A DNA stretch of 48,040 nt, taken from a virus. Below, piece after piece: positions 1 to 39,381 of this stretch; position 1 is the first letter of the stretch; every line of letters begins with the position of its first letter. Under the pieces are notes generated by a model that searched no databases, had not been told where the DNA came from, and saw only the letters and a list, made by a program, of their open reading frames with translations. The DNA lies in the IMG/VR virus record IMGVR_UViG_3300032285_004110, positions 1-48,040 of that record; one strand, written 5' to 3'. A program made the translations under genes and the position numbers.

Positions 1-162
1 TTGATTTGCCGTTTCTTTTTGATCTAACCATTTACCAAAAGCACTCGTTTCTTTATTAATCATCCAGCGTTTTCCACACATTATACAAAATAATTCCATA
101 TGTAGTTTTTGTGAGAATACTCTGTCTACAAAAACTCTTCCACGACATTTACCGCACCACAT
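1..162 (-). CDS. Zinc-ribbon protein (3' truncated by window edge)
   Basis: An open frame starts with ATG at 162-160 and runs off the window after 54 codons. The protein begins MWCGKCRGRV and has a second CxxC (CIMCGK) about 30 residues later, so it carries the four cysteines of a small zinc ribbon. The start shares one base with the stop of the metallophosphoesterase (TAATG), which indicates translational coupling; a GGAAAG lies upstream. Function is unknown. Small zinc ribbons of this kind are common phage accessory proteins and may bind nucleic acid or act as adaptors. The C-terminus is not visible. Confidence 0.6.
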   Translation of the reverse strand, partial: MWCGKCRGRVFVDRVFSQKLHMELFCIMCGKRWMINKETSAFGKWLDQKETANQ

Positions 163-962
163 TACAGTGTAAAAAACTTTCCATCCACTACACAGCTATA
201 ATCTGGTGAAACATGAATCATTTGAATATGAGGATAGTCATTTACAATATGTGCTACCGCAAATCCTTTTTGCCAATCATGGTGCTGAGTATATTTCATT
301 CCTGGGCCCTTTTCATCACACATGTGACCAATTTCATAGCCACGCAAAGTTTCGCCTTGTCCATTATTTCTAAGTTCATATGTTACCATATGAGAAGCAA
401 TTCTGTGTGAGTGTCCACGAATTAAAGAAATCTGCATATCTTCCATATCTTTTCTTGCTGATCCAGTTGCTGCAATTGAAAGTCCATGGTGTACATGTAT
501 ATCTCCAAAACGACGTTTAGGGAGTTCATCATAAAAAATATATTCATATCCCAATGAATCTAAAGACCAGAGCGCTTCTGGCGTTACTTCATTTGCATAG
601 TCTGGAAGCTTTTTATCAATATAATCAAAAATTCTAATATCGTGATTTCCAAGCGCTGAAAATAATTGTGCATCTGGAAGCATTTCTCTTGTTTTAGCAT
701 AAAAATCTCTAGCGCCTTTTGCTTCATGCCTCATCATTGGAACAATTAAATCACGACTGTCATCCTTGTGAAGTTGCATAAATTCTGCAGAACGACCTTC
801 TGTATACTTGCTATAGCATGCCTGATCGTCGGTGTCTCCCAAATAATCAACAACATCTGGCTTAAACCACTTCATTACTTTAAACCATAGTGCAATCATT
901 TTATCATCTTGATATGGAAACTGCTGGTCGGATGATAGCATCCACTTTAAATCGTTACTCAT
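162..962 (-). CDS. Calcineurin-like metallophosphoesterase
   Basis: This 266-residue protein carries the metallophosphoesterase motifs in order: D12-x-Q14 (the usual second residue is His, here Gln), G42-D43, G105-N-H-D108, HVHHG at 156-160 and G183-H-S-H186. Family members bind two metal ions and cleave phosphomono- or diesters; phage members include nucleic-acid phosphatases and nucleases, and the substrate here cannot be told. It has no signal peptide or membrane segment, so it is probably cytosolic. It is the first gene after the structural block and has its own promoter and leader hairpin. A GAAGG Shine-Dalgarno sits 6 nt before ATG. The downstream zinc-ribbon gene overlaps its stop codon. 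Confidence 0.88.
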   Translation of the reverse strand: MSNDLKWMLSSDQQFPYQDDKMIALWFKVMKWFKPDVVDYLGDTDDQACYSKYTEGRSAEFMQLHKDDSRDLIVPMMRHEAKGARDFYAKTREMLPDAQLFSALGNHDIRIFDYIDKKLPDYANEVTPEALWSLDSLGYEYIFYDELPKRRFGDIHVHHGLSIAATGSARKDMEDMQISLIRGHSHRIASHMVTYELRNNGQGETLRGYEIGHMCDEKGPGMKYTQHHDWQKGFAVAHIVNDYPHIQMIHVSPDYSCVVDGKFFTL

Positions 963-981
963 TATTTACCTTCATACGAAA

Positions 982-1003
982 AAAGTCACGGGTACGTGAC
1001 TTT
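982..1003 (-). terminator. Perfect 9-bp hairpin with U-tract in the metallophosphoesterase leader
   Basis: Arms 982-990 (AAAGTCACG) and 995-1003 (CGTGACTTT) are perfect complements around a 4-nt loop. Read on the minus strand the second arm runs into six T residues, the form of a Rho-independent terminator. It lies after the lectin-like gene (stop at 1048) and would end the structural transcript. It also lies downstream of the promoter at 1016-1043, so it falls inside the leader of the metallophosphoesterase transcript and may attenuate it. Confidence 0.7.
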
Positions 1004-1005
1004 GA

Positions 1006-1043
1006 TGTTACAATTATTGTAACATATGATTATGGTTTGTCAA
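1006..1043 (-). promoter_or_regulatory. Sigma70-type promoter with palindromic operator over the -10
   Basis: On the minus strand there is a consensus -35 TTGACA (1043-1038), a 16-nt spacer, and -10 TACAAT (1021-1016) preceded by TGT (extended -10). A perfect 9+1+9 palindrome (1006-1024, arms TGTTACAAT and ATTGTAACA) covers the -10 box and the probable start region, the position of a repressor operator. Transcription would start near 1009 and read directly into the hairpin at 982-1003. This is the best -35 match in the window. Confidence 0.75.
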
Positions 1044-1047
1044 TAGT

Positions 1048-1482
1048 TTAGGCTAAAACCCCTGTAGCAAAAAGAACAATCTTTAATTTAGTTGAAGTTG
1101 ATGTTCTAAATTTTACCTTTGCAGATGTTGTTGTTACTGCAGTTACCTGTGAAAAAACCTGAGACTGTGCAAATGTTGGCTGATCTAAACCTTCTGTATA
1201 AACTTGAACCCAACATTTTGGAGCTTCTGCAAATGGTTTAGCAAATTTAAACTCTTTTTCAGTAACAGTAGCTCCTCCAGATATTGATACAAGTTGTGGC
1301 CCAACAGCCTGAACTGTGCTGGATACGGTTGTAGATGATCCTGATGCAGTTGTGTTTGCAAGGGTAATTGTAGAAATTGTAGAGCCTTTATTAATTTCAT
1401 TTAAATCTAATATAATGTTATTAATAAGTTCCGCTGTTACTGGGTCGCCAGCATTGATATTTTTTGATTTTAAATCTGCCAT
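1048..1482 (-). CDS. Putative lectin-like tail protein (H-type lectin-like)
   Basis: A 144-residue protein. The N-terminal half is a Ser/Thr-rich linker after a helix (ELINNIILDLNEIN). The C-terminal half reads as a beta-sandwich: KEFKFAKPFAEAPKCWVQ, then FSQVTAVTTTSAKVKF, then LKIVLFATG. That pattern (F-x-x-pF-x-x-xP, then VT...F/V, then an aliphatic strand ending in A-x-G) resembles H-type lectin domains, which bind N-acetylgalactosamine-type sugars in other proteins. The match is by eye and modest. An AGGAG 6 nt before ATG is part of the preceding gene's end. It is the last gene of the tail block before a terminator, a usual place for an accessory receptor-binding protein. Confidence 0.5.
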   Translation of the reverse strand: MADLKSKNINAGDPVTAELINNIILDLNEINKGSTISTITLANTTASGSSTTVSSTVQAVGPQLVSISGGATVTEKEFKFAKPFAEAPKCWVQVYTEGLDQPTFAQSQVFSQVTAVTTTSAKVKFRTSTSTKLKIVLFATGVLA

Positions 1483-1641: not shown

Positions 1642-4292
1642 TATATACCTTTCAAAGTATTTACTTCTTCTTGTAATGATTCTACCATATTTGATAATTC
1701 TTGTATAGCTTTTGTTAATGGGGCTATAAATGATTCCATAGATAATCCCTGCAAGCTTTCTGGATCTGAGGGGTCATCCATTGACCAACCAGCAAAATCA
1801 TCTACCCCAGATTTATCTACTGCTTCTTTTACATCTTGAGCAATAAATCCCCAGTGTCTTCTAACTCCTGGTCTTGGAGTATAAGTAGGCCTTCCATCAT
1901 TTCCTAATATTACTTCTCCATTTTCATTTTTATTTAAAATATTTTCTCCAGATATTTTTTTAAATGAAACTGGCTTTAAAGAATTTATAAAATCAAGACC
2001 GAGTACGCTTGGCTCAATTTCTTTTTTAAGCCTAATATCAGATGTTATATTAGAATAGTCTGCTGCATAAAGTCTAGTCCATCTTAATGGGCCAATTCCT
2101 GAAGATGTGAGTCCTAAAGCATTTGAATTATCTGACCATGGATAAAAATGAGTTGTCCATCCAGATCTATTTGATGCATAGAAGCCTACACCATTTAATG
2201 TAATACCATTAGATGAACCAGGGTTTGCATTTAAATATGCATAAGCGCTATTTGATCCAAAGTTTACTATGTATCCAGTTCCAGTAACATTTATGCTTGC
2301 AGCAGACAATGTTCCAGCATTAACCTTATCTGCATTTAATGAGAATGTAGAAATAAAATCTGCAACTACTGCCTGAGCAGATACTGTTCCAGTTGTTATT
2401 TTCCCGCCATTTATAGTTGTTGTTGTTACGCTACTATTAATGCTATTTACAATAGCATCTCTATTAAAGCTTGTAGACGGCAATGCGGCATCTGCAATAG
2501 CTTTTGCAGCTGCTGCAGAAACTTTAGCGGTATTAGCATCTGTTGCAGCTTGTTGTGCTGCTGTTGATGCAGAATTTGCAGTAGATACTGCTGTTGAGGC
2601 ATTTGTAACAACTGTTGACGCAGTGGTTCCACCTATTGTGACAGTTCCAGCAATTGATGCATTTCCATCAATTACTGCTCCTGTTGCATAAAGTTTTCCA
2701 TTTAAATCTACTTTAAATGCTGCAGCTGATGCAGATTGAGATCCTACCCAAAGTCTATATGTTGAATCTGTTGCACTTAATCTTACAATTGAAGGAAGAG
2801 TTCCTGTTATATCTCCTAAAGTTATATTACCATTACTATCAAATATTGTTCCGTTTCGAGATATAGTTCCATATGTTTGTCCAGAGGGTACATTGATTGT
2901 CCAACCTGCAATGTAACCTTGTTTTGCATCCAATTTTCCATCAGCTTGAGTAATTGCCACTGTTTGATTATTATTTGTATCATATGCAAATAATCCTGCG
3001 CTATTTAATCTTACTCTTGCACCCGTATTTGGTTGTGTTCCAGCATACAAGGATCCTGTTGATATTTGAACATCTCCGCTAAAAGAGCCACCAGTTGCAT
3101 TTATTTTACCTGTTGTATATAAATCTGATCCGTCCCAATATAAAAAGTTTGTTGCGCTACCTACTCTAAATTGACCTGTATTAAGCCAGTAATTATGTCC
3201 AAAATTTGTTGTTGATTTGTTAAGTATTATTCCACTATAATTACCTGAAGTTTGTGATGGAGTTATTGTTGTAGATGTATTTATAGATTGAGATATTCCT
3301 GTTCCTATTTTAAATAGGTCTGCTGTTTTTCCGCCGATTGAAATAATTGATCTTAGTTGTGCAAAAGCATCTGATGGAGCATTTGCATCCACAATTGGCC
3401 CAACTGTTCCAGATTGGGATCCTAACCATGTCAAAGCATTGTATGGACTTTTTGCTGTTACTTGCCAATAGTAAAGTGTATTAGGGATAAGTCCAGTTAT
3501 ATCAAAAGTTGTTGTTGCTTTACCATCAACTTGTCCATATTCCCACAAAGGATTAGTTGTTGTTGCTGGATTTTGGGTTGTCCACCTTATTACATATCCT
3601 GAAGTATTATTGTCTGAGTTTGCTGTCCATGAGGCTGTAAGCTTTGCACTAAAACCACTTTTATCATTTGCATCTATTGATCCCGTTACTGATGCAGATT
3701 GCGGTGCAGCTGGCGGAGTAGAAGTATCTGGATCTGCATTTTTAGGAGTTACTGATCCCCCAGCATCTGGCCCTACTGCAATAACATCTGTATTATTTTG
3801 AGTAAGCCATTTGTCTCTTGATCTTACTTTAACCCAACGTGGAGCAAAATCAGATGTATTGATTGTTACGTTTGTTGATGTTCCAACATATACGATGTAC
3901 TGATTTGCAAAATCTGCAGTAAGGCTTTCAAATATTACAACATCTTCTTGAATACTTGTTGGATCTATTGTAAATTTAACTCCATATGATTTAAATCCTG
4001 CAGTTAATGTTAAATTTTGTACACCTTTAGTATAATTTGGAATATCAAATCCATATTGAACTGTTGGTGATCTTGGGCCTTCTGTAACAATATGCGTCTC
4101 TGGGTTTTCATATAAATAGTTAAACCAAAATGAAAATACTTTTGCAGCCCTTGTTAGAGGAAGTTTTAGCTTTACTTCGTATGAACCTGGTGATGTTTTA
4201 GATGCCGCATCTGCTGCAGCATCTGTAGTTTTTTGTAAATCAGGAAATAAAAAATTTGCATCGCCTGGATTATCTGCATAATAACTTGCCAT
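1641..4292 (-). CDS. Tail fibre with fibronectin-III domain and peptidase S74 chaperone
   Basis: An 883-residue fibre. The N-terminus (about 1-185) is beta-rich and may attach to the tail tip. A fibronectin type III domain spans about 187-295 (TPPAAP linker, then LTASWTANSDNNTSGYVIRW and YYWQVTA). A long beta/glycine fibre and an Ala-rich coil (about 530-630) follow. The C-terminus is an intramolecular chaperone/auto-protease of the S74 family: the cleavage serine is S751-D752, with RLKK next to it and GFIAQDV and ESFIAPLTKAIQEL downstream. S74 domains help the fibre trimerise and then cut themselves off. A homologous S74 domain ends the gene at 28194-29390. The start overlaps the upstream stop (TGATG). 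Confidence 0.88.
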   Translation of the reverse strand: MASYYADNPGDANFLFPDLQKTTDAAADAASKTSPGSYEVKLKLPLTRAAKVFSFWFNYLYENPETHIVTEGPRSPTVQYGFDIPNYTKGVQNLTLTAGFKSYGVKFTIDPTSIQEDVVIFESLTADFANQYIVYVGTSTNVTINTSDFAPRWVKVRSRDKWLTQNNTDVIAVGPDAGGSVTPKNADPDTSTPPAAPQSASVTGSIDANDKSGFSAKLTASWTANSDNNTSGYVIRWTTQNPATTTNPLWEYGQVDGKATTTFDITGLIPNTLYYWQVTAKSPYNALTWLGSQSGTVGPIVDANAPSDAFAQLRSIISIGGKTADLFKIGTGISQSINTSTTITPSQTSGNYSGIILNKSTTNFGHNYWLNTGQFRVGSATNFLYWDGSDLYTTGKINATGGSFSGDVQISTGSLYAGTQPNTGARVRLNSAGLFAYDTNNNQTVAITQADGKLDAKQGYIAGWTINVPSGQTYGTISRNGTIFDSNGNITLGDITGTLPSIVRLSATDSTYRLWVGSQSASAAAFKVDLNGKLYATGAVIDGNASIAGTVTIGGTTASTVVTNASTAVSTANSASTAAQQAATDANTAKVSAAAAKAIADAALPSTSFNRDAIVNSINSSVTTTTINGGKITTGTVSAQAVVADFISTFSLNADKVNAGTLSAASINVTGTGYIVNFGSNSAYAYLNANPGSSNGITLNGVGFYASNRSGWTTHFYPWSDNSNALGLTSSGIGPLRWTRLYAADYSNITSDIRLKKEIEPSVLGLDFINSLKPVSFKKISGENILNKNENGEVILGNDGRPTYTPRPGVRRHWGFIAQDVKEAVDKSGVDDFAGWSMDDPSDPESLQGLSMESFIAPLTKAIQELSNMVESLQEEVNTLKGI

Positions 4293-5248
4293 CAGAAATC
4301 AAGACCTAGCCTATATTCTATATCCATTTGTTTCCCCAAAGGCTTAATGATTGAAGTTGATAAAACTGATCTGCTTATTAATCCATAATCTGATCTAAAA
4401 GCATCTTCGTCATTAATTCTTAAACCATCAAATAATACATTTGATTGTCCCGAATTTTTTGCTTTAATCCCAACAGATAATTTAACAATAGATTGATTAT
4501 CTGGTGTTCCATTACCATAACCACTTGTATATAAATTATTTAATGTTAAAGATTTTATCTTATACCCTATTGAAGTATCTGATGGATATCTAATTTCATA
4601 ATAGTTATCATTTGAATCATATGTTCTAATAAAAATGTAATCAAGATTTAAATCTGATTGATAGTATGCTAATGTTAAGCTATCATTTGAACTGTAGCCA
4701 GAGATATCAAGGTTAAAATTATAGAAATAATTTTTAGATCGTGAAGAAGCTGCATCCATAGACATATAATAGCTTCCAATTTTTGGCTCAGATGATGTTA
4801 ATGCTTCTACAAAGTTTCCATCTGAATCATACCATTCTTGATTATTTTCAAATGTAGATATTGAGTTACTTGCGTAATCTGTACTTCCAAATGTTGCGGA
4901 CGGGAATAAGCCAACTTCATTTATTACTCCAGCAACGTCTACTGGTATAGTTGTCTTATACACTATGCCGTAAGTGCTTTCACCTGTAGTTTGGCTTGTT
5001 TGTATATCTATGCTGCTCATGTTTACAAATGATTTATAAAATTCAAATTCAAGCTGAGTATCATTTACTGTTGCTTGTGTTGATCCTACCCCTAAAACTA
5101 TATCTTTTGAGTTAGAGATTGCTTTGCCTGCAAGGTATTGGGTAATGTATCTTTTACCAAACTTAGTTAAAATATTTTTGCTGCGGTATATTTCTTTTCC
5201 ATCTTCATAAAAAAAATATTCACCTGTTAAATTTAAATTATTGTCCAT
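4292..5248 (-). CDS. Putative minor tail / tail-tip protein
   Basis: A 318-residue protein with no membrane segment. The N-terminal 110 residues read like a tail-tip fibre-adaptor domain: KNILTKFGKRYITQYL, then IVLGVGSTQAT, then TIPVDVAGVINEVGLF. The rest is rich in Asp, Asn, Ser and Tyr with alternating beta strands (ISGYSSNDSLTLAYY), as in phage beta-sandwich receptor-binding or carbohydrate-binding modules. It starts inside the end of the preceding gene (11-nt overlap) with AGGAG 9 nt upstream of ATG, and it is followed directly by the S74 fibre, so it probably joins the fibre to the tail tip. This assignment rests on context and weak pattern resemblance. Confidence 0.55.
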   Translation of the reverse strand: MDNNLNLTGEYFFYEDGKEIYRSKNILTKFGKRYITQYLAGKAISNSKDIVLGVGSTQATVNDTQLEFEFYKSFVNMSSIDIQTSQTTGESTYGIVYKTTIPVDVAGVINEVGLFPSATFGSTDYASNSISTFENNQEWYDSDGNFVEALTSSEPKIGSYYMSMDAASSRSKNYFYNFNLDISGYSSNDSLTLAYYQSDLNLDYIFIRTYDSNDNYYEIRYPSDTSIGYKIKSLTLNNLYTSGYGNGTPDNQSIVKLSVGIKAKNSGQSNVLFDGLRINDEDAFRSDYGLISRSVLSTSIIKPLGKQMDIEYRLGLDF

Positions 5249-36307: not shown

Positions 36308-39300
36308 TTAAGCTGTTAGGTCTCCAAGAAGTACCCATGTATTTGCTGCTCTTTTTACAAGAGTTGCAGATGACCATTGTGCACGAAGCTTGTTTCCTGG
36401 TGTGTAATTTAATGTTACTCCAGCTGCAGGTGAAACAGTTACTGCTCCAGCTCCTACTCTTAGAATATCCAAAGATGTTCCGACTGGGTAATTTGTTGAT
36501 GAATCTGCTGGAACTGTTAATGTTGTAGATCCTGATGCATTTATTTCAATTAATGAATCACGTTCTGAAAGATTTGAAAGTGTGTAATCTGCTGTTTTTG
36601 AAATAATTGTTGTAAGTGATGGAACACCTTGCTTTGTTTGAGATCCATCTGTAAATATTATTCCTGAAGCATCTACTGTAACTCCACCAGTAAACGATGG
36701 TGTTGCAAGATTTGCTTTTAATCCAAGACTTGTTGAAAGTCCTGAGATCTTTGACTGTGCAATTGCTGCAGAAGCATTTATATCTGCATCAACAATTGTT
36801 CCGTCAAGTATCATATCTGATGTAATTGCACCTGTTGCAATAGATAATGTTCCGCCAGTCTTTGTTAAACCTGAACCAGCAAGTATTGCCTGTGCTGCGT
36901 TAAATTGTACATAGTTAATGTTATCTGTACCAATTGTAAGTGTTCCAGATCCTGAAAGGATATATCCTGTATTTGCAGAAAGTGTTCCTGCTGTTACGAA
37001 ACAGAAATCTCCTCCTGACATTTCACCATTTGGATTATTATCATCGTCAGTTGCACGAGTCATTACCCACTTAGAAGATGCTCCTCCAAGAGAAGTTACT
37101 ACATAAATACCATTTTGCTTTGCATCTGTTTGTGATTTAACAAGAACTCTATCACCAACAGACATTGTCTGTCCATCAACAGTACCCATTGCTCCGTTTG
37201 CATCTGCTGTAAGAGTTGCTCCGTATCCATTGGTTCCATTAGCATAAGTTGTTGAAATATTTGTACTTGTTGCTGCCTTTACTGGTGCATGGAAATTAAT
37301 TCCAGAAGCAAAACCGTCGACATAAAGTTTGGTTGCTGCATGAAGATCTGATGTTGGTGCACCTGAAAGTGTAAGTGCTCCTGTCATTGTTCCACCAGCA
37401 AGTGCTAATTTTGCATCAAGTGCTGTTTGGGTTGCTGTTGAAACTGGTTTATTTGCATCTGATGTATTATCTACATTTGCAAGTCCAACCATTGACTTTG
37501 TAATACCAGAAACAGTTCCAGTAAATGTTGGTGAAGAAAGCGAAGCTTTAAGATTTAAAGCTGTTTGTGTTGCTGAAGATATTGGCTTATTAGCATCAGA
37601 TGTATTATCAACATTTGCAAGACCAACTGATGATTTTGTTAATCCAGCTACCGCAGTTGAAACTGCTGAATCAGCATAAGTTTTTGTAGCAAGTGCAGTT
37701 GTATCTGCAATGCCATGAATATTTGTTGTATCTGCTTCATGTGCTGCAAGTGATGCAGTAGACGCTTTTGTATTAATTTGTGTTTGAAGACTACTTGTTG
37801 TTGTATTGATTGATGTAACAGATGATTCAAGTGAAGATATTGTATTTTCAGCTGAATTTAGGTCAGATTGAAGTGTATATACTGAATTTTCTATTGTACC
37901 TATGGTTGCATCATAACTTGTTTTTGCTGCCGCAAGACCATTTGAAACTGTATTAATTTGAGTTTGAATAGATGAGGTTACTCCTGATAATCTACCTATT
38001 TCATCTTTTGTAACAGAGCCAATTGCTGTAGTTTCTGGTAAAACTACTGAGCCTGTAAATGTTGGTGCTGCTGATGGTGCTTTTGAAGCCAATGTCGATG
38101 TTAGGTTTGCAATTTTAGATATTGATATATCTGCACTATTGCTAATATCTGCATTAACAATTGTTCCATTTGCAATCATTCCTGAAGTAACTGTACCTTC
38201 TGGAAGAGTAACTGTTCCATTAAATGTTGGAGAAAGTATTGGAGCATATGTTGAATTAGCATATGCTGTATTTACTTTTGCATCAAGCTGATCTTGTACT
38301 GATGAAGTTACGCCATGCAAACGTTGAATTTCAGCATTTGTTGTATCTCCAATTCTTGCTGCATCTGCAAATAAGCCACCTACTTCAAGAGCATCTTTAG
38401 ATGCACCTGTAAAGTTTATTGTTGTTGTTGGTTCATCAACAACGCCTGAGAATAATCTCCATTTACCTTCTGAAGCATCACGAACAAGTCCTGAATGCTG
38501 ATATGTTCCATTGTTAAATGATGTAACAAATCCCAAGTCTAAAGAATTTGATTGATTATTTTCACCAAAATAAACTAGCGGATCTGATACAGAAAAACTT
38601 TCTGTATTTACAGTTGTTGTTGTACCATTTACTGATAAATTACCTGAAATTGTGATGTTGCCAGTTGTTATTTCTTCGGCTTCTACTGTACCAACCTGAA
38701 TAAGAGGTCCGCTAAATTTTGTTTGAGCCTGTATAGTGTTTGGAAGAGAAATAGTAATTCCATTATTGCTTGATGAATCTGTTTTAACAAGTCCATTATC
38801 AACATCTATAGATGCGTATAAAGTTTTTGTTGATGTTGCGTTATCCCATGTAGATCTTATGCCTCTACCAGGAACAAGTTTTGAATCTATTAAAGATATA
38901 ACTGTATTATCTATATTTAATTGGCCAGATGGAACTTTGCCAGAGTTATCTAATGAAGCAACTCCTCCAGCAATTCCTCTATCTGACATTGGAATATAAT
39001 CTGAGTCTACTGTGTTTGCAAGACCTGAGACTGCTGAATCTACATATGATTTAAGTGCTACTACGTTTGAATCAACGTTAATTGTTATTGTGTTAGCACC
39101 ATCATTGTAAGTTTTTGAAAGTCCTGCACCCATTGTAAGGGCTGTGTTAATAGCATCTTGGGAAATTTCACCAATTGCTACATCTGAATTATTTGCATAC
39201 GCAAGGGCGGTCCAGGTAGATGATCCGTTACCGAATTTAAATAGGTTTGTGTCTGACTCGACACCCATTTCTCCTGCTGCCAAAATTGGATTTACTGAGG

Positions 39301-39349
39301 TCCACTGTGAAGCTGTTCCTCTTCTTACTTGGATTCTTACTGTTGACAT
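36308..39349 (-). CDS. Tail fibre with Mtd-like N-terminal domain
   Basis: From ATG 39349 (AGGGGTGG 7 nt upstream; a GTG three codons earlier is less likely) the fibre has 1,013 residues. The N-terminus (MSTVRIQVRRGTASQWTS, then NPILAAGEMGVESDT, FKFGNGSSTWTALAY) is the Mtd-type adaptor domain that attaches fibres. It continues with repeats such as VGLANVDNTSDANKP, paired with SPTFTGTV units, typical of phage long fibres, and has a region TTTVNTESFSVSDPLVYF that is paralogous to the 45658-47655 fibre. The end (YVQFNAAQAILAGSGLTKTG, then SSTNYPVGTSLDILRVGAG) is a beta-rich tip. No S74 or collagen part is present. Confidence 0.85.
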   Translation of the reverse strand: MSTVRIQVRRGTASQWTSVNPILAAGEMGVESDTNLFKFGNGSSTWTALAYANNSDVAIGEISQDAINTALTMGAGLSKTYNDGANTITINVDSNVVALKSYVDSAVSGLANTVDSDYIPMSDRGIAGGVASLDNSGKVPSGQLNIDNTVISLIDSKLVPGRGIRSTWDNATSTKTLYASIDVDNGLVKTDSSSNNGITISLPNTIQAQTKFSGPLIQVGTVEAEEITTGNITISGNLSVNGTTTTVNTESFSVSDPLVYFGENNQSNSLDLGFVTSFNNGTYQHSGLVRDASEGKWRLFSGVVDEPTTTINFTGASKDALEVGGLFADAARIGDTTNAEIQRLHGVTSSVQDQLDAKVNTAYANSTYAPILSPTFNGTVTLPEGTVTSGMIANGTIVNADISNSADISISKIANLTSTLASKAPSAAPTFTGSVVLPETTAIGSVTKDEIGRLSGVTSSIQTQINTVSNGLAAAKTSYDATIGTIENSVYTLQSDLNSAENTISSLESSVTSINTTTSSLQTQINTKASTASLAAHEADTTNIHGIADTTALATKTYADSAVSTAVAGLTKSSVGLANVDNTSDANKPISSATQTALNLKASLSSPTFTGTVSGITKSMVGLANVDNTSDANKPVSTATQTALDAKLALAGGTMTGALTLSGAPTSDLHAATKLYVDGFASGINFHAPVKAATSTNISTTYANGTNGYGATLTADANGAMGTVDGQTMSVGDRVLVKSQTDAKQNGIYVVTSLGGASSKWVMTRATDDDNNPNGEMSGGDFCFVTAGTLSANTGYILSGSGTLTIGTDNINYVQFNAAQAILAGSGLTKTGGTLSIATGAITSDMILDGTIVDADINASAAIAQSKISGLSTSLGLKANLATPSFTGGVTVDASGIIFTDGSQTKQGVPSLTTIISKTADYTLSNLSERDSLIEINASGSTTLTVPADSSTNYPVGTSLDILRVGAGAVTVSPAAGVTLNYTPGNKLRAQWSSATLVKRAANTWVLLGDLTA

Positions 39350-39381
39350 ATTTGCCACCCCTAATTTAGACTTATTTGGTA

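Follow-up and report, generated by a model that had tools for sequence, protein, structure and literature searches.

A candidate compact operon boundary in uncultured actinophages, with a sigma-A-type promoter and putative RNA hairpins between tail and replication genes

Promoters of the sigma-A/sigma-70 extended -10 type are recognized by their -35 and -10 hexamers, which are spaced 16-18 nt apart. In the mycobacteriophages L5 and D29, an intrinsic (Rho-independent) terminator is located at the end of the late genes (PMC5712189). Inverted repeats associated with gene starts have been described in other actinophages, namely the ESAS of cluster K and the repeats of cluster EG, both of which occur in many copies per genome (PMC3203893, PMC7302621); base pairing of the ESAS within mRNA was poorly supported according to its authors. 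In E. coli, the tR2 terminator has to lie more than about 30 bp from a stop codon to be fully effective, and a terminator located less than 100 bp into a coding region can remain functional (PMC4824070). It has also been reported for the E. coli enzyme in vitro that RNA polymerase can be recycled after termination at nearby promoters (PMC6978380).

In this study, we analysed a 48,040-base stretch of viral DNA, the IMG/VR virus record IMGVR_UViG_3300032285_004110 (here called the window), which is not a whole genome and whose long ORFs lie on the minus strand. The gap between the stop codon of an H-type lectin-like gene and the start of a metallophosphoesterase (MPE) gene holds a promoter, a palindrome, a hairpin and a U run (Table 1), and the coordinates given for this stack in an initial annotation of the DNA are right. 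We suggest that the site is a compact actinophage operon boundary, in which a sigma-A-type promoter is combined with RNA hairpins that end tail transcripts, and we consider this interpretation probable, if only slightly so.

Table 1. Features of the leader in the window, and loci with a comparable repeat at a second promoter in relatives
Feature	Position	Strand	Remark
-35 hexamer TTGACA	1038..1043	(-)	identical in 146/149 distinct leaders
Extended -10, TGT-TACAAT, 16-nt spacer	1016..1024	(-)	TACAAT itself at 1021-1016
IR1 left arm TGTTACA, overlapping the -10	1018..1024	(-)	covariation with right arm
IR1 right arm TGTAACA, overlapping the expected start site	1006..1012	(-)	covariation with left arm
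Expected transcription start, ~7 nt past the -10	1009	(-)	inferred from promoter geometry
Hairpin II, AAAGTCACG-TACC-CGTGACTTT	982..1003	(-)	pairs kept through double changes
Six-U run	979..984	(-)	984-982 paired with AAA, 981-979 unpaired
AAGG, Shine-Dalgarno-like core of the MPE gene	969..972	(-)	
MPE gene, PHROG 221, first gene past the tail genes	162..962	(-)	synteny
H-type lectin-like gene, last of the tail side	1048..1482	(-)	4 nt between its stop codon and the -35
whiB/tRNA-Asn promoter hairpin loci	L095 (G001) ~1499; G003 38345; G005 63585; G011 82272; G018 16004; L361-L425	(-) for G003 and G018	

Position and conservation of the leader

Among cultured phages, the MPE protein is most similar to those of the Rhodococcus phages NiceHouse, Grayson and Trina (56-59% identity). 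In these three phages and in Streptomyces phage BillNye, the tail genes precede the MPE gene, and further downstream lies a gene for a DnaB-type helicase. The closest IMG/VR relative (L002) has the order tail genes, leader, MPE, a small protein whose cysteine pairs resemble those of a zinc ribbon, a helix-turn-helix (HTH) protein weakly like HTH_17 and below the Pfam cut-off, small genes and DnaB. Based on this gene order in relatives, the leader sits at the boundary between the structural and the replication module. A whiB gene was found in 7 of 7 large relatives tested, which points to an actinobacterium as the host; the MPE protein had no match in the GTDB genomes scanned, and a scan with a tail protein likewise gave none. 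A large protein encoded in the window (36308-39358, minus strand) contains an Mtd_N domain (major tropism determinant N-terminal) and is perhaps a receptor-binding tail protein. A GC-rich, terminator-like hairpin lies 3' of an Ig-domain protein gene (17835-17814, minus strand), and the same hairpin is present in the relative G001 near 72058.

Judged against 20 dinucleotide shuffles of the window, each single element of the leader is unremarkable: one 9+1+9 palindrome was seen where 0.3 were expected, one 9-bp stem followed by TTT where 0.35 were expected, and three TTGACA-16..18-TAnnnT combinations compared with 3.6. The significance of the site lies in its conservation across 149 distinct leaders. 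The promoter is indeed the only 11/12 match in the window, as its initial description as the best -35 of the window implied; however, relatives with larger contigs hold many that are as good or better, and the ranking is therefore a trait of a window made up of structural genes.

Leaders were gathered by scans with two MPE proteins, the palindrome and the hairpin sequence, which yielded 152 distinct leaders, or 149 without the three Rhodococcus phages, in which the intergenic space is too small for such a leader. About half of the 149 were found via the MPE protein, while the rest came from the hairpin and palindrome scans and are biased towards those elements. Since pattern scans would bias prevalence, the 76 protein-only leaders were counted separately: the hairpin is at its expected place in 70 of them (51 with a GTCAC stem, 13 with GGCCATGA and 6 with other stems), and 6 have no hairpin there. 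Besides the -35 hexamer (Table 1), the 16-nt spacer is kept in 142 of the 149 leaders and a TGT or TGC precedes the -10 in 137, the commonest -10 being TACAAT (116 of 149). The MPE promoter and the terminator-like hairpin just past its expected start, first proposed from the window alone, are borne out as conserved by the comparison of the leaders. In 16 of 137 leaders, the distance from the stop codon to the -35 is -4, which by position places the TGA of the upstream gene inside the TTGACA hexamer. Promoters at other sites in relatives (G001 at 4268 and 94084, G002 at 4419) have a start codon about 6-7 nt past the -10, as for leaderless mRNAs.

The exact palindrome in the window, TGTTACAAT-n-ATTGTAACA at 1006-1024, extends over the -10. 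When up to 3 mismatches were allowed, no second copy was found in the window, and 13 other IMG/VR stretches hold the exact form, 13 of 13 at the same locus. For the hairpin, 116 of the 117 copies checked among the matches listed are followed by MPE according to an automatic test, and the remaining one (L083) reads MSNDLK before the DNA ends. Among the matches listed from IMG/VR, no palindrome or hairpin copy was seen off this locus. The initial annotation had taken the palindrome for an operator with sites elsewhere and had looked to a second copy or to conservation of it; the former is missing, whereas conservation is strong, and with every copy checked at this locus and a variable loop the proposal of sites elsewhere was not upheld.

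Pairing within the two repeats

The second repeat, hairpin II, forms a 9-bp stem with a 4-nt loop in the sense RNA (-10.7 kcal/mol, z -5.6) and is directly followed by the U tract, of which three residues are unpaired when a 9-bp stem is assumed. Its pairing was examined in 43 leaders in which both repeats were spelled out, by comparison with shuffles that ignore relatedness and therefore overstate independence: 94.1% of cells were paired compared with 87.0% in the shuffles, two-sided changes were present in 53 cells compared with 15.6, and covariation was 0.251 compared with 0.125. This signal was lost when partners were slid by 1-3 columns, and each half of hairpin II pairs better with its true counterpart than with permuted halves (z about 8). 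The double changes that preserve pairs include A-U to G-C, U-A to C-G and C-G to U-A, and one-sided departures in the core give G-U on the sense strand and no A-C.

The U tract is kept just as closely in the main group. Following GTGAC, T occupies positions 3-6 in 51, 51, 51 and 49 of 51 leaders and position 7 in 15 of 51, so that the run is six in the window and in nearly all leaders of the GTCAC group. Six U are also kept where they are unpaired, as in CGTGACC-CTTTTTT (L038 and relatives, whose stem ends CC) and TGTGGCT-CTTTTTT (L041). A stable short-loop stem in the sense RNA with a U tract directly 3' of it is the pattern expected from selection for an intrinsic terminator, as far as can be judged from the leaders compared. 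In the GGCCATGA group, a stem of 9-11 bp is retained and the U tract is absent. Where hairpin II is present, this group included, it begins 6-17 nt past the -10 (mostly 12-14), which would be consistent with a 5'-terminal stem-loop that shields the replication mRNA from 5' decay, termination being secondary or absent. We consider this quite unlikely as the main function, as it leaves the six-U tract, and its keeping where unpaired, unexplained. One lineage has neither hairpin and a different promoter before MPE; an HNH_3 endonuclease gene precedes MPE there (L059 2686-2949, also L078, L235 and L269).

The first repeat, IR1, lies over the -10, and in most relatives it reads TGTTACAATTACTGTAACA, that is 7+5+7 instead of the perfect 9+1+9. 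The 9+1+9 form of the window is incidental, and comparison of the leaders indicates that the conserved element consists of 7-8 bp arms around a variable loop of mostly 5-7 nt. The arms of IR1 match each other better than permuted arms (z 6.8). On supported branches of the MPE tree, the third pair changed jointly between T-A and C-G in 5-6 independent cases against 0 (two-sided median p 0.06), and 6-7 of 12 cases in the same test changed on the left without the right; at the sixth pair, joint changes stood at 6-7 against 0 (two-sided median p 0.016). Several leaders with the -10 TACACT have a longer, 8-bp IR1 stem, for example TGTTACAC-TTAGG-GTGTAACA, and in L034 (G013 39185) the stem grows to 13 bp. 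Roughly a third of the leaders have an IR1 that is weak or missing in the usual place. IR1 is hairpin-like in its variable loop and longer stems, but its departures from pairing gave G-U and A-C at 22:25 with 33 ties, and it may act as DNA. By eye, the palindrome is not a divergent promoter, as several groups do not retain the final T of the opposite-strand -10.

The symmetry over the -10 and the start site could suggest that IR1 or the hairpin II palindrome is bound as a DNA operator by a dimeric repressor, for example the weakly HTH_17-like protein that is encoded in the operon. In the GGCCATGA group (e.g. L034 in G013), the ATAT loop makes hairpin II a complete palindrome in the DNA, which would fit such a site. 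However, the 5-7 nt that are usual for the IR1 loop shift the spacing of the half-sites, where an operator would be expected to keep it fixed, the copies checked are at one locus only, and the core of hairpin II wobbles in the sense RNA only. We therefore regard a repressor site as improbable.

An inverted repeat around a -10 is also present at a second promoter, which precedes whiB or tRNA-Asn in five large relatives (Table 1). Here the left arm lies in the spacer, the -10 in the loop and the right arm past the start. A WhiB protein scan gave 65 loci with 31 distinct promoters, the repeat being absent from some relatives. Each arm of this repeat pairs better with its true partner than with permuted arms (z 8.8 with G-U, 5.2 with A-C), and its wobbles favour sense G-U over A-C by 22:4. 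As the left arm precedes the expected start, RNA that forms this hairpin must come from upstream. In many cases a modest U run follows this hairpin, and the -35 is near the upstream stop codon. Among 190 strong promoters in 13 genomes, strong -10 hairpins (score 22) numbered 7 compared with 0.3 in shifted controls, although these seven are not independent, the 13 genomes being related; most of them sit at whiB and tRNA promoters, and one at MPE. Hairpins at the -10 as a general rule were rejected, short perfect repeats numbering 18 compared with 8-26 in shifted controls, and most tRNA promoters have no -10 hairpin. It is conceivable, though we put this forward only tentatively, that at least two boundaries (MPE and whiB/tRNA) carry promoters interleaved with hairpins that only RNA of the upstream operon can form, since the left arm precedes the start site, and that these end or mark the old operon while their arms change in sequence and keep their pairing.

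A possible order of events at the boundary

The comparison of leaders establishes the conservation of the promoter, the pairing and covariation of both repeats, the U tract of the main group and the position at a module boundary. On this basis we infer that transcription would start close to the site expected from the promoter geometry, and that the strong sigma-A-type promoter would drive a replication operon comprising MPE, the Zn-ribbon-like protein, the HTH protein, small genes and the DnaB helicase. Hairpin II with its six-U tract would act as an intrinsic terminator for most tail transcripts, 44 nt past the tail-gene stop codon in the median. In 137 leaders this distance is 30-58 nt, although in part it follows simply from the promoter sitting in between; the promoter may fill the stretch that has to separate a terminator from a stop codon, which for tR2 is about 30 bp (PMC4824070). 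IR1 would fold as RNA only in read-through RNA from upstream, because the promoter's own RNA starts inside the right arm. That RNA would carry hairpin II at about +7 to +28 and might be partly attenuated there or pass through, after which hairpin II would become the 5'-terminal stem-loop of the replication mRNA. As a speculation, polymerase released at the terminator may restart at the adjoining promoter.

Several observations go against this interpretation. A terminator within the first 31 nt of a promoter's transcript should silence the operon unless it is leaky; the position near the 5' end is in itself no bar, as terminators have been reported to work early in coding regions (PMC4824070). 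Furthermore, the GGCCATGA group has no U tract, IR1 is weak or missing in many leaders, and the HNH lineage is without both hairpins.

The same arrangement, with promoter and terminator both conserved and hairpin and U tract spanning roughly +7 to +31 in main-group leaders, could instead serve as an attenuator, in which most RNA from 1009 ends at about 979 as a short RNA of 31 nt and a phage or host factor gates entry into the replication genes. We regard this as unlikely. The sole antiterminator candidate, the spacer paired with the Shine-Dalgarno region, is no better than permuted pairings (z 0.3), no Rfam family reached its cut-off, and the roughly 6 nt that separate the hairpin from the expected start are too few for a leader peptide, although a protein factor may still take such a role. 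Lineages that have lost the U tract or the hairpin keep a promoter, whose main role is therefore probably gene expression rather than production of a short RNA. A three-way junction that would hide the Shine-Dalgarno sequence in read-through RNA, as found in the minimum-energy fold, was likewise not above permutation (z 0.3) and was discarded.

Comparison with known systems

If the proposed boundary is correct, it shows how widespread uncultured (aquatic) actinophages may part their late from their replication genes in about 80 bases, and it provides a testable rule, by which read-through RNA is the sole target of hairpins that surround a -10. A further caution is that perfect symmetry across a -10 does not by itself imply a protein operator.

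The leader resembles the L5/D29 terminator in having a stem-loop where the structural genes end, at a module boundary, here with 9 bp, a 4-nt loop and a U tract; it differs in that the hairpin is located just downstream of the expected start of the next operon and not before its promoter. With the ESAS and cluster EG repeats it shares an inverted repeat in a short gap immediately upstream of a start codon, but here a single locus is concerned, as far as the copies checked go, and both repeats covary. The promoter, with TTGACA, TGn, TACAAT, a spacer of 16 and an 11/12 match, is of the sigma-A/sigma-70 extended -10 type, except that its -10 doubles as an arm of an inverted repeat. By analogy with polymerase recycling, the terminator beside the promoter could feed it with released polymerase. 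The parts are therefore known ones, arranged in an unusual, compact and conserved order.
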